NCBI GenBank assembly: GCA_017430535.1
Contig: JAFRMR010000026.1
Coordinates: forward strand, 216,331 to 280,330
DNA: 64,000 bases
Source: Clostridia bacterium
GTDB taxonomy: Bacteria > Bacillota > Clostridia > Oscillospirales > Acutalibacteraceae
Direction: 5' to 3'
Shown here: positions 9,570 to 14,219 of the stretch, in pieces
Layout: each line of letters starts with the position of its first letter
How positions within the stretch are numbered: position 1 is the stretch's first letter
The notes under the pieces: model-generated
The model's input: only the letters and a program-made list of their open reading frames with translations
Told to the model about the DNA's origin: nothing
Database searches by the model: none
Position numbers and translations under genes: made by a program

Positions 9570-10709
9570 TCAGTCTATCCTGTAAATTCTGCCGTCTTTT
9601 CTTCCGGCGGCCGCCGGCATATCGCCGTCAATAAAGCCAAGGGCGCAGTGGCCTATGCCCTCCCATTCGCCTTCAATGCCCAGTTCTTTAAGCATAGCTT
9701 TGTATTCCGGCATTTCAAACTCTTCTTTGGCCCTGTGAATCCATATGCTTCCAAGGCCCAGGCTGTGGGCGGCAAGCATAAGGTTGCCCATCATAAGGCT
9801 GCCGTCATAAATATAAGTGGGGCAGCTTTTATCTGCCAGCACAATAATTATAACAGGGGCGCCGTAAAAGGGGTCAAAGCCTTCGGCCCAGCCGCCTATT
9901 CTGCGGTTTATATCGGCAAGTTTATCCCTCTGCTCTTTGTTTGTTACAGCAATTGCAATTGCCGCCTGCATACCTCTGCCGTTTGCGGCATAAAGCCCGG
10001 CATTCAGTATCTCATCAATCTGCTCTTTTGCCGGCATATCCGGCCTGAATTTGCGTATGCTCCTGCGCTCTTCCATTGCTTTGATTATTTCGTTCATCTT
10101 TGTTTTCTCCTTATCCTGATTATTTATTATCCATTTATCAAGAAACGCCATTTGCTCCTGTGTATGGAACCAGTGCTCTCCGCCTTCCATTACAGTCAGC
10201 TTTGCGTTTATTTTATTTGCAAAGGCTTTTACAGTTTCAATATCCGTCAGGTTATCGCCGCTGCCGTAAAGAATTTCCGCCGGGCCGCTCCAGTTTACGG
10301 GATTTTCTCTTACATAGGTAAGGTAATCCCATGAGAGTATTTCGCCGCTTTTCGTAATCACTGTTCCTTTTTCTTTCAGCTCATCTTCCGTAACCCCTGC
10401 CTGCAGCATCATGCCCAATATAAGCTTTTCCATATCAATTACAGGGGATATGAAGTATGCCTTGTCTGTCAGCGAATCGGCGCCGGAGTGCAAGGCAAAA
10501 AATGCGCCTATGCTGTTTGCAATAAGGGTTATGCCGCCGTATTGTTTTTTTAGTTTCATTACGGCTTCTTTTATTTCTTTACCTGCATCCCAAGGGGTTG
10601 CGGATTGATAATCAAGCCCGGTAACAAAACAGCCTGGGAAAAGAGCTTTATAATGCTCCGCCTCTCCCGGGCTGCCGCCCCGGCCGTGAATATACAGTAC
10701 AGCTTTCAT
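9570..10709 (-). CDS. Alpha/beta-hydrolase / nitroreductase fusion
   Basis: 379 aa in one frame. Residues 1-200 are a small alpha/beta hydrolase: AVLYIHGRGGSPG oxyanion region, ANSIGAFFAL (G-x-S-x-G-like elbow) and a late EGGEHWFH histidine. Residues 205-379 are a complete nitroreductase-family protein beginning MNEIIKAMEERRSIRKF, with the FMN-binding Arg-Ser-x-Arg-x-Phe and GLGSIW. Between them (10098-10140) the DNA still has AAGGAG correctly spaced before the internal ATG at 10097. A one-base shift would place a TAA in the linker. This looks like two genes joined by loss of the first stop; the second can probably still start on its own. The start overlaps the TfoX gene stop by 4 nt. Confidence 0.85.
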   Translation of the reverse strand: MKAVLYIHGRGGSPGEAEHYKALFPGCFVTGLDYQSATPWDAGKEIKEAVMKLKKQYGGITLIANSIGAFFALHSGADSLTDKAYFISPVIDMEKLILGMMLQAGVTEDELKEKGTVITKSGEILSWDYLTYVRENPVNWSGPAEILYGSGDNLTDIETVKAFANKINAKLTVMEGGEHWFHTQEQMAFLDKWIINNQDKEKTKMNEIIKAMEERRSIRKFRPDMPAKEQIDEILNAGLYAANGRGMQAAIAIAVTNKEQRDKLADINRRIGGWAEGFDPFYGAPVIIIVLADKSCPTYIYDGSLMMGNLMLAAHSLGLGSIWIHRAKEEFEMPEYKAMLKELGIEGEWEGIGHCALGFIDGDMPAAAGRKDGRIYRID

Positions 10710-11029
10710 TGCTTTTTTGCTTTCTTCTTCGGCTCCGGGAGCTCATTGTATATTGCCTCAATCAGTTCCCTGAGGAAATCTTTATTTTCAATATTTTCCA
10801 CAAGCAGCATTTCCTTTGCCCCTTCGTAGGGGAGCTCTTTTTCCGCCTCAGGCATAAGCGCCGCGGCGGATTTAACGGGTTTAACCAGAAAACGGTTATC
10901 ATAAATGCCGCCTATTACCTTACCACGGCAGTAAATTATGTATTCACCCATCATAGCTCTGCAGGTTATCCCCTCGGTTTCGGAAAGCTGCTCCAGTATA
11001 TAATCAAGGTATTCCTTATCCGATGCCAT
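10706..11029 (-). CDS. TfoX N-terminal-domain protein
   Basis: 107 aa matching the TfoX_N fold: CRAMMGEYIIYCRGKVIGGIYDNRFLVKPV followed by PYEGAKEMLLVEN and a helical, lysine-rich end (PKKKAKKQ). The C-terminal half of true TfoX/Sxy is missing, as usual for these short Firmicutes versions, whose role is unknown. The ribosome site GGAGG precedes the ATG. The stop overlaps the hydrolase start (ATGA), so the two are translationally coupled. A hairpin array begins 50 nt upstream. Confidence 0.85.
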   Translation of the reverse strand: MASDKEYLDYILEQLSETEGITCRAMMGEYIIYCRGKVIGGIYDNRFLVKPVKSAAALMPEAEKELPYEGAKEMLLVENIENKDFLRELIEAIYNELPEPKKKAKKQ

Positions 11030-11079
11030 TTTTTCCTCCGAAATAATATGGTGCTTGTTTACTTAATATCCTTCTTTTG

Positions 11080-11262
11080 TCGATATATCTCGCTGTGTGC
11101 GATTCGATATATGAGGCATTCGCCTCATTCGATATGTTTGCATAGCAAACGAGTTTTCTCGATAAACCCTTTCTTATCGCGGAGCGATATATCGAGCCGC
11201 TTTTGGCGGCATATCGAACTTTTTCAAAAGCATATCGAAAATCCGGAACGGATTTATCTCGA
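11080..11262. repeat. TCGA-punctuated mini-hairpin array, copy 1
   Basis: TCGA recurs at 11080, 11104, 11129, 11159, 11192, 11214, 11235 and 11259, marking seven units of 21-33 bp. Most units contain a different small palindrome: TGAGGC/GCCTCA, GTTTGC/GCAAAC, CGATAA/TTATCG, ATCGC/GCGAT, GCCGC/GCGGC, CTTTT/AAAAG and AAATCCG/CGGATTT, with loops of 2-8 nt. The second copy at 12654-12860 is nearly identical. It is not a CRISPR: the stems all differ and only the short TCGATAT punctuation is shared. Confidence 0.9.
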
Positions 11263-11282
11263 CAGACTATACAAGTTTTGAA

Positions 11283-12251
11283 TTATAAGTTTTTTATATA
11301 TCTGCACTTAGGGAAACCTGAACACCCGTAAAATTGGTTTCCGGTATTTGTTCCCTTTTTTGCAGTTCTCAGCACGAGTTCTTTCCCGCACCACGGGCAG
11401 ATTAAAGTTTCATCATCCGATGATTGATTTATAGAATCCGATTTGTCATTTTTTAAACTTTCAGTATTTGATATTTCTTCCGTCTCTGTAAGAGCTTGAT
11501 TGTTTTCATCAACAAATTTTTGAAACTTTGCAATGTATTCTTTTCTGTTTTCCCTGTTCAAAGCAAGATAGTTATTACCATAGGAAATCATTTCTTTTTT
11601 ACTGCTCTTAAACTCATTTTTCAGTCCCTTAAGAACGTTGATAAGTTGGTCTCCTCTTATAACTTTATTTCTTATTTCTTTCGGAGCGTATTTATCATTT
11701 ACAATTGTTTTTGGATTGGCTAAAACTACTAAAGATTTGTTAAATGTTTCAAAACTTTTATCTGCTAAAGCGCGTTTAAAAATATTTTTATTTTCAGTTC
11801 TGCAATTCTTAAACACAGTTAAATGCCGCTCATTTTGTGTAATAGGGCTGTAAATACCTTCTTTTATCCAATGGCCATTGTATTGAAAGGAGCGTATAAA
11901 CTCGCCTTTGCTGTTTATTTCAATATTACCGAAAAGATTTTTGCATTCAATCAGCACATTAACATAAGGTGTAATAACCAAATAATCAATTTGTGCGCCT
12001 CTTCCGTCCGATGTTTCAATATATAAGTCATGCAATACAACAAGATCCATACCGCTGTTTTTCAGTTCAAACATTATGGATTCTTCGCCGATTATTCCTG
12101 CTTTGGTTATTGCGATTTCTTTATCTATTTTACTTGCAAACTCAGTATTATCGGTAATTTCTTTTCTGAGCGTTTCAAGCTTTTCAAGATAGTCTTTTGC
12201 ATCACTGGTTTCTTTCAGGATTGTAACTTCCGGTTTATCAAATAATCCCAT
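11283..12251 (-). CDS. NERD-domain nuclease-like protein with topoisomerase-type zinc ribbon
   Basis: 322 aa starting after GGGAGGAATAATAC. The NERD core has the restriction-endonuclease-like residues in order: E56 (IGEESIMFEL), D89 (QIDYLVITP) and E102-x-K104 (LIECKN). A charged, helical middle follows. The C-terminus is a four-Cys ribbon of the DNA topoisomerase I type: C285-x2-C288 and C310-x5-C316 (CPWCGKELV, YGCSGFPKC). NERD proteins are suspected nucleases of DNA processing or defence; the ribbon would give nucleic-acid contact. It is downstream of the four-helix gene with 27 nt between, and the pair is bounded by hairpin arrays. Confidence 0.85.
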   Translation of the reverse strand: MGLFDKPEVTILKETSDAKDYLEKLETLRKEITDNTEFASKIDKEIAITKAGIIGEESIMFELKNSGMDLVVLHDLYIETSDGRGAQIDYLVITPYVNVLIECKNLFGNIEINSKGEFIRSFQYNGHWIKEGIYSPITQNERHLTVFKNCRTENKNIFKRALADKSFETFNKSLVVLANPKTIVNDKYAPKEIRNKVIRGDQLINVLKGLKNEFKSSKKEMISYGNNYLALNRENRKEYIAKFQKFVDENNQALTETEEISNTESLKNDKSDSINQSSDDETLICPWCGKELVLRTAKKGTNTGNQFYGCSGFPKCRYIKNL

Positions 12252-12278
12252 GTATTATTCCTCCCTATAGTATAGCTT

Positions 12279-12635
12279 TTATTTCTCAGCATTGTTTTTT
12301 GCCGTAGTGATTGAAGCAATCAGTTTTCGCTGAATTGTTCCTCTGGTTGAATTTAGCTTATTAAACTGTTCAGTACTTATCTTATTCTTTCTGTGTAATA
12401 ACACAAGCCAGTATTCTGTTTCTGAGCATTCTTTCAACGATATTTCAAGCTTATGAATAAAATCAGCTCTGCTTTGGGCATACTTTGCTTCAAAAAGGTT
12501 AGCTCCTATTGATGAAGAAGAGCGTATAATCTGTTCAACATATGAGTGGCAGCCTTTAATATTGTCGCATAAATCCGATACTTCAAGTGCAAAAGAAATT
12601 GTCAGTTCGCGAAGTTCGTTTTTGTTAGTTTCCAT
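12279..12635 (-). CDS. Four-helix-bundle protein (S23/IVP, Avd-like)
   Basis: 118 aa with the family pattern: LTISFALEVSDLCDNIKGCHSYVEQIIRSSSSIGANLFEAK, then a helix containing FIHKLEISLKECSETEYWL. Members are encoded in intervening sequences of 23S rRNA genes, and the Avd protein of diversity-generating retroelements has the same fold; they bind nucleic acid. GGAAGG precedes the ATG. Its start lies 18 nt from a hairpin array, so its promoter must be inside the array or the rlmD transcript must read through. No rRNA or reverse transcriptase lies nearby. Confidence 0.9.
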   Translation of the reverse strand: METNKNELRELTISFALEVSDLCDNIKGCHSYVEQIIRSSSSIGANLFEAKYAQSRADFIHKLEISLKECSETEYWLVLLHRKNKISTEQFNKLNSTRGTIQRKLIASITTAKNNAEK

Positions 12636-12653
12636 TCAGTTTTCCTTCCTTTG

Positions 12654-12860
12654 TCGATATATCCCGCTGTGCGCGATTCGATATATTTTCCTCAGACAAT
12701 TCGATATATGAGGCATTTGCCTCATTCGATATGTTTGCATAGCAAACGAGTTTTCTCGATAAATCCTTTCTTATCGCGGAGCGATATATCGAGCCGCTTT
12801 TGGCGGCATATCGAGCTTTTTTCAAAAGCATATCGAAAATCCGGAACGGATTTATCTCGA
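12654..12860. repeat. TCGA-punctuated mini-hairpin array, copy 2
   Basis: Nine TCGA marks (12654, 12678, 12701, 12726, 12756, 12789, 12811, 12833, 12857) define eight units, one more than copy 1. The additional 23-bp unit lies between 12678 and 12701 and has no obvious stem. The other units match copy 1 with a few substitutions and one added T. The end at 12860 supplies the last codons and stop of rlmD. Confidence 0.9.
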
Positions 12861-14219
12861 TGCGAAACTTCGCGTCAGGCACGCGACAGTTTCACAATGC
12901 CCCGTTCTCGGAAACATATCGCAGGCTGCCGCCTTCACTGTTTCATAACCGAGCTCCCTGAATATTCCGCAGTCTCTGGCAAGGGTTGCGGGGTCGCAGG
13001 AAACATAAACTATTCTCTCCGGCTTCATTTCCGCCACGGTTTCAAGCACTTCCCGGGCACAGCCCTTACGGGGCGGGTCAAGTATTACAACATCCGGTTT
13101 TATTCCTTCTGTTTTCAGCTCTTCAGCCGCCTTGGAGGCATCGGCGCATATAAACCGGGCATTTTCAATGCCGTTTGTTTCCGCATTTATTCCGGCATCT
13201 TCTATTGCCTCAGGTATCACTTCAACCCCGATAATACGCCCGGCATTTTTTGCCATTGTCAGGCCTATGGTCCCCGTGCCGCAGTAAAGGTCCAGCACGG
13301 TTTCTTTCCCCGTCAGGCAGGCGTATTCGGCGGCTTTGCCGTAAAGCCGCTCCGCCTGGTCACGGTTAACCTGATAAAATGAGAGGGGAGAAAGGCGGAA
13401 TTCAAGGCCGCAGAGGGTGTCGGTTATATATCCCGGCCCGTAAACCGTTCTGCACTTTTCGCCCGTAACAACATTTGTGCTTTCCGGGTTTTCATTTATA
13501 ACAACGGTTTTTATGCTTTCACAGCAGGCGGTCAGCATTTTTACAAGCTCATCCTCTGCAGGCAGAGATTTTCCGTTTATTACGGGGCACACTGCAATTT
13601 CTCCGCTGGCGGTGCCTTTTCTCAGGTATATGTGGCGTATAAGGCCTTTGCCGCTTTCCTCATCATATACCGGCACATTAAATTCATTTATGTAGTTTTC
13701 AAAAACTCCCAGGATTTTTTCAAACTCCGGCGGCTGAAGCAGGCAGCCCGGGCAGTGAATAACCCTGTGGGTGCGGGGGGAATAAAACCCCATAAGCAGT
13801 TTATCCCCGTCTTTTCTAACGGGGAACTGCGCTTTGTTTCTGTAGCCGTATATTTTTTTTGCCGCCAAGGTTTCCTCAAATTCCGGGTTCAGGCCGCCTA
13901 TGCGGCGGAAGCACTCTTTAACGTGATTCTCCTTTGCTCTGATTTCCGCCTCATATTTCATATGGCCGAAGGAACAGCCCCCGCATCTGCCGTAAACGGG
14001 GCAGGGGCTTTCAATTCTGTCCGGCGAAGAAACAATTATTTCTTCAATTTTGCCTGCGGCATAGTTCTTTTTTGCTTTGATTATGTGGGCGCGTATTTTT
14101 TCGCCGGGTATTGCGCAGCGCACAAAAACCGCCATACCCTCATAACGGCCAACGCCGCTGCCGTCAAGGCCGCAGCTGTCTATATCAATTTCAATTTTGT
14201 CGTTTTTATTCAGCAGCAT
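12852..14219 (-). CDS. rlmD: 23S rRNA (uracil-C5)-methyltransferase, RlmD/TrmA family
   Basis: 455 aa. It has an N-terminal TRAM domain (DKIEIDIDSCGLDGSGVGRYEG) and a 4Fe-4S cysteine cluster CPVYGRCGGCSF. The Rossmann methyltransferase domain has VLDLYCGTGTIGL (SAM), VILDPPRKGC and the catalytic Cys in VYVSCDPATLARD. The enzyme methylates a uridine of 23S rRNA with SAM; whether it is RlmC, RlmD or dual-specific cannot be told. The last codons and TAA fall inside hairpin array 2, so the native C-terminus was altered by the insertion, beyond the conserved CETVACLTR. It follows the CPBP gene with 3 nt between. Confidence 0.9.
   Translation of the reverse strand: MLLNKNDKIEIDIDSCGLDGSGVGRYEGMAVFVRCAIPGEKIRAHIIKAKKNYAAGKIEEIIVSSPDRIESPCPVYGRCGGCSFGHMKYEAEIRAKENHVKECFRRIGGLNPEFEETLAAKKIYGYRNKAQFPVRKDGDKLLMGFYSPRTHRVIHCPGCLLQPPEFEKILGVFENYINEFNVPVYDEESGKGLIRHIYLRKGTASGEIAVCPVINGKSLPAEDELVKMLTACCESIKTVVINENPESTNVVTGEKCRTVYGPGYITDTLCGLEFRLSPLSFYQVNRDQAERLYGKAAEYACLTGKETVLDLYCGTGTIGLTMAKNAGRIIGVEVIPEAIEDAGINAETNGIENARFICADASKAAEELKTEGIKPDVVILDPPRKGCAREVLETVAEMKPERIVYVSCDPATLARDCGIFRELGYETVKAAACDMFPRTGHCETVACLTRSFASR

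Follow-up and report, generated by a model that had tools for sequence, protein, structure and literature searches.

A four-helix-bundle gene and its heptamer-punctuated hairpin array as probable parts of a small mobile element in Clostridia

In a stretch of 64,000 nt from a Clostridia bacterium (Acutalibacteraceae; assembly GCA_017430535.1, contig JAFRMR010000026.1, positions 216,331 to 280,330), here called the window, a gene for a four-helix-bundle (4HB) protein of the family PF05635/TIGR02436 stands next to an array of short hairpins that are separated by a recurring heptamer, the punctuator. We found that such arrays are a frequent companion of 4HB genes, that they are built in a typical order, and that their heptamer word follows the phylogeny of the protein. 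Array and gene are very likely parts of one element, and the window probably holds a member of a family of small mobile elements in which a PF05635 4HB gene is combined with a dedicated heptamer array as its cis-partner.

The window belongs to contig C24 of the genome that we call G000. All genes at the locus lie on the minus strand, in the order rlmD, array copy 2, 4HB, NERD, array copy 1, TfoX-like gene. The features are as follows.

11069 to 11262, minus strand: array copy 1, between the NERD stop codon and the TfoX-like gene (TCGATAT/ATATCGA punctuators and hairpins, with a tract inside that resembles a ribosome-binding site)
11283 to 12251, minus strand: protein of 322 aa with NERD domain and topoisomerase-type zinc ribbon (Pfam), read as a putative passenger
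12279 to 12635, minus strand: 4HB protein of 118 aa, PF05635/TIGR02436, the constant partner of the array (profiles and structure matches)
12643 to 12860, minus strand: array copy 2, which precedes the 4HB gene; its punctuators read LLLRRRR in gene sense, in addition to a degenerate first unit, TCGAGAT (repeats and punctuator order)
about 12687 to 12709, minus strand: additional punctuator-and-hairpin unit of 23 nt, present exclusively in copy 2 (copy alignment)
12852 to 12860, minus strand: end of rlmD, with the stop codon at 12852-12854, within the first unit of copy 2 (overlap)
12852 to 14219, minus strand: rlmD-type RNA (uracil-5-)-methyltransferase gene, the host gene, with the insertion site at its 3' end
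10706 to 11029, minus strand: TfoX-N-like gene, downstream, slightly below the Pfam cut-off; a similar gene follows the insert in the relative G007

An initial annotation, made from the letters of this DNA, had described two direct array copies that enclose a gene pair. Repeat alignment confirmed this: copy 1 (about 194 nt) and copy 2 (about 218 nt) are 93-100% identical over three blocks (11069-11112/12643-12686, 93%; 11102-11229/12699-12826, 96%; 11220-11262/12818-12860, 100%), with an offset of 1 nt near the far end. The distance between arrays and genes, given as 18-20 nt, was measured as 20 nt from the end of copy 1 (11262) to the NERD stop codon (from 11283) and 18 nt from the 4HB start codon (12635) to the first TCGATAT (12654), and the rlmD stop codon does fall inside copy 2, which had been said to supply it. 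The proposed identities of the two proteins agree with Pfam matches to NERD (E 1.1e-15), Zn_ribbon_Top1 (1.7e-12) and 23S_rRNA_IVP (2e-20). The punctuation by TCGA is real, with one correction: in gene sense, copy 2 consists of two oppositely oriented blocks, TCGATAT units and then ATATCGA units. As to the claim that transposase, integrase and reverse transcriptase (RT) are lacking, no such open reading frame (ORF) was seen between the arrays; the remaining window was not scanned for them.

The word TCGATATAT occurs 7 times in the window, every time inside the array copies, where 0.50 occurrences would be expected and 100 shuffles gave at most 3. Relative to shuffles, folding of the gene-sense strand gave a z of -6.9 for copy 1 as DNA and of -3.8 for copy 2 as RNA. 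The fold predicted for copy 1 DNA is a ladder, in which TCGATAT copies at the distal end pair with proximal ATATCGA copies and hairpins protrude on both sides. Zero families were matched in an Rfam scan of the window at gathering scores.

The association between array and 4HB gene was then quantified in relatives. The confirmed ones (best 80 of 566) come from uncultured Clostridia, Ruminococcus and Oscillospiraceae assemblies, many of them from ruminants. For a first sample, we took one PF05635 locus per genome, the best listed match at least 3 kb into its contig, together with two loci of the window's own genome, which gave 60 loci from 59 genomes; genomes whose matches were all unlisted or nearer to a contig end were left out, from a total of 70 with a match. 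A repeat array was present in the upstream 250 nt of 42 of the 60 4HB loci, compared with 10 of 157 control gaps upstream of other genes in the same stretches, and downstream of 5 of 59; this score misses loci of the flanking type, which carry heptamers on both sides of the gene. Similarity between upstream and downstream flanks exceeded the 99th percentile of 486 control genes at 14 of 60 loci in inverted and at 5 of 60 in direct orientation. The second PF05635 gene of the window's genome, on contig C27, has a different array upstream, right after a tRNA cluster and terminator.

A pooled set comprised 210 unique 4HB loci from 272 profile matches. A lenient filter (at least two repeated upstream 6-mers) was passed by 200 of them, and the remaining 10 were excluded from later counts. 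Many loci are related to each other and come from draft assemblies, and several counts rest on motifs that we defined after inspection. The typical array contains about four heptamer punctuators followed by about four inverted ones, with differing hairpins in between. The division into two blocks of opposite orientation was perfect at 99 of 124 testable loci; blocks of at least three plus three were found upstream of the gene at 115 of 200 loci and downstream at 8 of 198, and four plus four was the commonest size (33/130). Punctuators are spaced by a median of 22 nt, and the last one precedes the start codon by a median of 33 nt (13-74 nt, 5th to 95th percentile).

Hairpin conservation was assessed segment by segment; no covariance model was made because the stems are too different for a simple alignment. 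At least 4 bp can form in 72% of the segments between punctuators (21% when shuffled), although 549 of 600 segments are distinct in sequence. Over 115 elements, folding relative to shuffles reached a median z of -5.3 for the RNA and -5.8 for the antisense strand. Complementarity between the first unit and the centre of the array was seen in 57 of 109 elements (3.3 expected), and therefore an alternative fold exists. A dense intergenic mix of array families, with the words TATATCGC, ATGATTTG and AATGCGCAATTCGC and no clear gene, was observed on contig C25 of the window's genome (L018, 4300-5230). A number of 4HB genes are situated near contig ends, which would be expected if arrays break assemblies.

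The punctuator word is shared by loci with similar proteins. At protein identities of 80-92, 70-80 and 60-70%, a repeated 6-mer was common to 97%, 95% and 80% of locus pairs, and at 50-60, 40-50, 30-40 and below 30% to 22%, 15%, 5% and 4%. The mean fraction of hairpin stems shared was 22%, 13% and 8% in the three upper bins, a different measure that gives only a rough contrast with the sharing of 6-mers. On a FastTree tree of 197 rows, 104 were labelled, each of them containing one of ten listed words four times or more; the nine resulting punctuator classes need 9 changes, compared with a mean of 48 and a minimum of 45 in 60 shuffles. TCGATAT is the word of the window's clade, GCGATAT that of its sister clade, and TGAAAT/ATTTCA that of a large class. 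Paralogues of less than 60% identity within one genome have the same word in 4 of 14 pairs. Judging by the congruence with the tree and the word differences between paralogues, the word appears to characterise the element more than the host.

The elements also prefer certain sites. Within the 600 nt upstream, 68 of 186 loci have a tRNA gene, on the same strand in 68 of 68 cases, compared with 1 of 184 control windows. This preference depends on the class: upstream tRNA genes were found at 38 of 47 TGAAAT loci and 23 of 93 unclassed ones, and at 0 of 14 TCGATAT, 0 of 16 GCGATAT and 0 of 6 GTGATAT loci. The 3' end of an rlmD-type gene is the site at 7 of 14 TCGATAT and 9 of 17 GCGATAT loci (16/31 together), and at 18 of 200 loci overall. 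Intrinsic terminators that end no more than 25 nt from the first punctuator were detected for 36 of 115 elements, compared with 5 of 575 random positions. Site labels need 38 changes on the tree (72 when shuffled, minimum 64), so site choice is only partly bound to clades. In L094 and L100 the 4HB element immediately precedes a tRNA-Leu(tag) gene, and direct repeats of 45-48 nt place a copy of the 5' part of this gene upstream of the element.

Within the genus of the window, the rlmD-site comparison uses five genomes. G007, G029 and G039 carry a 4HB gene directly after rlmD, and in G007 the order is rlmD, array, 4HB, array, TfoX, with another array family and direct copies that are 99% identical. 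G021 and G042 have an array at rlmD and no 4HB gene there. The rlmD-TfoX synteny was rejected as an empty-site series: the end motif missed about half of 30 rlmD loci, and a TfoX neighbour was present in none.

Heptamers accompany 4HB genes beyond this bacterial group as well. We examined 8 of 22 plasmid records with a tblastn match, from Cyanobacteriota, Bacteroidota, Chloroflexota and Spirochaetota. By eye, a heptamer tract stands upstream of the gene in 8 of 8, and runs of period 7 were detected on both sides in 7 of 8 (all except L385). L383 and L387 have slightly more than four heptamer copies per side, inverted; L384 has four upstream, together with a second heptamer word, and four inverted copies downstream; the closest tract downstream of the L381 gene is in direct orientation. 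More generally, period-7 runs were found upstream of 57 4HB loci (56 of the 217 in which both flanks were long enough), and periods of 5, 6, 8, 9 and 10 in 0-1. Thirty loci have them on both sides, with 4-5 copies upstream and 4 downstream as the commonest numbers. Sequence windows away from 4HB genes contained such a run in 24 of 3436 cases, and some of these belong, by position, to other 4HB genes. L092 by eye lies inside a 23S rRNA gene; heptamers of TTAGAC type stand inverted at its two ends, the same build as in the plasmid loci.

Some of these loci have conspicuous surroundings. In a plasmid of Anabaena cylindrica PCC 7122 (L381, 1210-1557), the 4HB gene with its heptamer flanks has cas2 on one side and cas1 on the other, both on the opposite strand. 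In L384 (1129-1527) and L386 (1201-1566), which represent two phyla, it follows a helicase-related gene, and a DNA methylase gene is next or one gene away. Several heptamer tracts with different words are spread over a few kb of one genome in L112 (9400-15200).

Direct and inverted repeats across the 4HB unit occur at 38 and 30 of 209 loci, respectively, whereas 217 mock positions from these stretches yielded 4 and 2; the enclosed-cassette form seen in the window is therefore recurrent but in the minority. The longest direct repeat per locus measures 27-272 nt and varies in length and place. A second array within 4 kb downstream was found at 7 of the 31 TCGATAT/GCGATAT loci. L231 has a tandem pair of 4HB genes with a 272-nt direct repeat that is 99% identical.

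Arrays were also found alone. The window's genome has five near-identical dispersed copies, one of which differs in its first hairpin, and a sixth array of different construction; G039 has seven sites, of which four are near-identical. In G007, a complete two-block element without a gene follows a tRNA-Leu gene and its terminator, and the PF05635 matches of this genome are on other contigs. The 44 stretches taken around pattern matches or for follow-up (L336-L379, with flanks of up to 1.5 kb) yielded no 4HB ORF. A triple CGATAT pattern matches 27 of 45 genus genomes, many of these matches being stemless and apparently due to chance in coding sequence.

The gene next to the 4HB gene varies. Clear NERD homologues (E below 1e-12) exist in 7 of 200 family genomes, the window's own included, and one of six NERD loci inspected has a 4HB-like ORF nearby, on the opposite strand. 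Among the 31 TCGATAT/GCGATAT loci, the 4HB gene is followed by NERD in the window, directly by Mrr in L206, L227 and L249 (Mrr_cat, E 6e-32 to 7e-22), by an AAA-type ATPase in L252 and by peptidase S51 in L231. NERD and 4HB as a general, fixed two-gene system, as first proposed, had to be given up, although the restriction endonucleases of Mrr type at the NERD position in 3 of 31 loci speak for some recurrence of nuclease-type neighbours. NERD may be a passenger. PADLOC defence models matched 0 families in either protein, and NERD matched the NCBIfam model MADS6 weakly and in part (21.7 bits against a cut-off of 460). Elsewhere in the window, the second half of a 379-aa ORF (9570-10709) matches a nitroreductase domain (Pfam 6.6e-20); the first half reads as alpha/beta-hydrolase-like but has no Pfam match.

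The other proposals of the initial annotation fared better. Insertion beside rlmD is supported by the recurrence of this site in the window's clade, and the 4HB gene as partner of the array by array enrichment, shared words and congruence with the tree. The suggested link to 23S rRNA intervening sequences (IVSs) also found support, and the idea that the array is a nucleic-acid ligand gained some indirectly, through the match between punctuator and protein. Genes without arrays in relatives, named there as an observation that would speak against it, are not the rule, since most tested 4HB genes have arrays. Arrays scattered in genomes without the genes, the other such observation, do exist in part, and this leads to the evidence that weighs against our interpretation.

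Solo arrays without a nearby 4HB ORF occur even in genomes without a PF05635 match (G014, G018, G042), and arrays can therefore persist or spread alone. No upstream array signal was obtained at 18 of 60 loci; some of these are of the flanking type, and others, such as L144, show nothing. In genes from other families of the phylum, at least three heptamers upstream with two inverted downstream were present in 16 of 30. Only 2 of 4 within-genome paralogue pairs of at least 60% identity share their word. Plain joint descent of array and gene could explain the congruence. Related sequences enter the tree, pair and site tests alike; 77 of the 210 loci are those most closely related to the window protein. 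A recombinase, RT or transposase could not be tied to the element: RVT_1 has no match in G000 or G039, and Y1 transposase, matched in 26 of 45 genus genomes, is represented in G000 by a single match on contig C12, not C24, and has no match in the G039 assembly, which is 87% complete. Finally, both binding and movement are inferred.

Taking all this together, we propose the following model. In the simplest members, a 23S rRNA IVS and cyanobacterial plasmid copies, the gene has about four tandem heptamers on each side, mostly inverted. In the type found in the window, short hairpins separate the heptamers, and both blocks (about four plus four, inverted) lie upstream of the gene. If the hairpins fold out, the left heptamers could pair with the right ones and form a ladder about 28 bp long, every rung of which is flanked by a hairpin on either side. 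The 4HB protein probably binds the heptamers directly; it would recognise its own clade's word in the folded array, as RNA or single-stranded DNA, and would be needed to keep or move the element. Its structure model (pLDDT 94) matches 2rld and 2gsc, each an entry of five chains, and more weakly Avd (4dwl, 8ub7); the solved relatives form five-subunit assemblies, and Xcc0516 is a pentamer (PMC4990558). The RNA of the element would originate from read-through of the host. The element often sits just 3' of a host hairpin (a tRNA terminator or the rlmD 3' end) and in the direction of the host gene. We consider it rather likely that the whole element moves, or once moved, as a unit. Recombination between two arrays could have generated the direct copies around 4HB and NERD, and genes such as NERD would ride along.

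Alternatively, the array might merely be a structured 5' leader or operator of the 4HB mRNA, through whose punctuators the protein regulates itself, with movement only by ordinary recombination. The short distance to the start codon, the agreement between punctuator and protein and the strong folding of the RNA fit such a leader. The antisense strand, however, folds equally well, heptamers follow the gene as well in flanking-type members, solo arrays have no gene, and class-specific sites recur 3' of tRNA genes and rlmD, so that we regard this explanation as rather unlikely. The arrays could also be ordinary palindromic repeats, similar to repetitive extragenic palindromes (REPs), bacterial interspersed mosaic elements (BIMEs) or miniature inverted-repeat transposable elements (MITEs), moved by another enzyme, with 4HB genes as passengers in repeat-rich sites. 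The near-identical dispersed arrays of G000 and G039 and the frequency of Y1 transposases in the genus would agree with this, but the word tracks the 4HB tree, paralogues of one genome mostly differ in their word, arrays are far commoner at 4HB loci than in other gaps, and G039 has arrays with neither a Y1 nor an RT match. We find this unlikely, and Y1 transposase as an obligate mover is not favoured.

The placement of elements after tRNA genes, always on the same strand, and the terminators that precede them are reminiscent of an RNA-based retroelement, in which an RT acting in trans copies the element RNA and the 4HB protein plays an Avd-like part, landing 3' of terminator hairpins like group IIC introns. 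Its structure indeed resembles Avd (PMC10053308). Despite their dispersed arrays, G000 and G039 lack an RVT_1 match, although an RT could lie in an unassembled part; RT in trans is not favoured, and we hold this origin to be very unlikely. It is even harder to believe that NERD and 4HB are a module dedicated to defence or RNA repair, for which the arrays would store guides or ligands. The nucleases directly after the 4HB gene and the plasmid copies beside cas genes or in helicase/methylase gene sets would suit such a module, whereas the varying neighbours, the rarity of NERD in the family and the lack of PADLOC matches do not.

If an element of array and 4HB gene is the right interpretation, PF05635, a widespread family with solved structures and no established function, gains a testable partner, a clade-specific heptamer word in about four plus four copies, and defined substrates for binding and mobility tests would follow. 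As a speculative extension, which is possible but less likely than not, PF05635 proteins would define widespread minimal mobile elements in which a ring-shaped binder and a four-plus-four heptamer code replace a known recombinase or polymerase. The IVSs of rRNA would then be a special case, and the hairpin-laced form a ladder of stacked four-way junctions, read heptamer by heptamer, that directs insertion beside host hairpins.

Among known systems, group IIC introns insert just after terminator hairpins; unlike them, the window has no Rfam match and its genome no RT match. The Avd protein of diversity-generating retroelements has the same fold as the 4HB protein (query TM about 0.7-0.8 for 4dwl and 8ub7), but sequence identity is only 13-15%, and no RT, template or variable repeat was seen at the window locus; for such retroelements, RVT_1 was searched in G000 without a match, and repeats were not tested. 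Avd is described as part of an RT ribonucleoprotein (PMC10053308). REPs and BIMEs with their REP-associated tyrosine transposases (RAYTs) are comparable by analogy, in that they too are dispersed, arrayed short palindromes with a conserved tag word and a partner gene (PMC3733652, PMC2817692, PMC3116915). The tag in the window is TCGATAT/ATATCGA, however, and not GTAG or CGTC (PMC3733652), the partner is a 4HB protein and not a Y1 transposase, none of which is adjacent, and the window's family has inverted heptamer blocks of about four plus four and class-specific insertion sites.

The closest resemblance is to the IVSs of 23S rRNA. Those with an S23p/4HB ORF are known from Coxiella, Leptospira and others and have been called a selfish element, and excision from the transcript by RNase III is a mark of IVSs; a minority of the IVSs named in PMC4990558 are not said there to carry an ORF. 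The same source already describes the Coxiella IVS with complementary ends that form a 28-bp stem and tandem heptameric repeats upstream of the ORF (PMC4990558). In the open-licence PMC literature searched, we found no description of heptamer arrays at PF05635 genes outside 23S rRNA, nor of the general rule, the hairpin-laced form, the congruence of word and protein or the site preference. The element of the window encodes a four-helix protein of the same family, PF05635, but it lies outside rRNA, between protein genes 3' of rlmD, and has no Rfam match. The complementary blocks of copy 2 are both upstream of the gene and form no enclosing stem, the two copies are direct, and locus L147 has no inverted pairing between the two flanks within 300 nt. 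Heptamers separated by hairpins, a nuclease-type neighbour, direct array copies and solo arrays distinguish it further. Even so, the window's family appears to be a so far overlooked relative of the IVSs in rRNA genes, and one class of elements would unite these with the heptamer tracts on plasmids of cyanobacteria and other phyla and the hairpin arrays of gut Clostridia.

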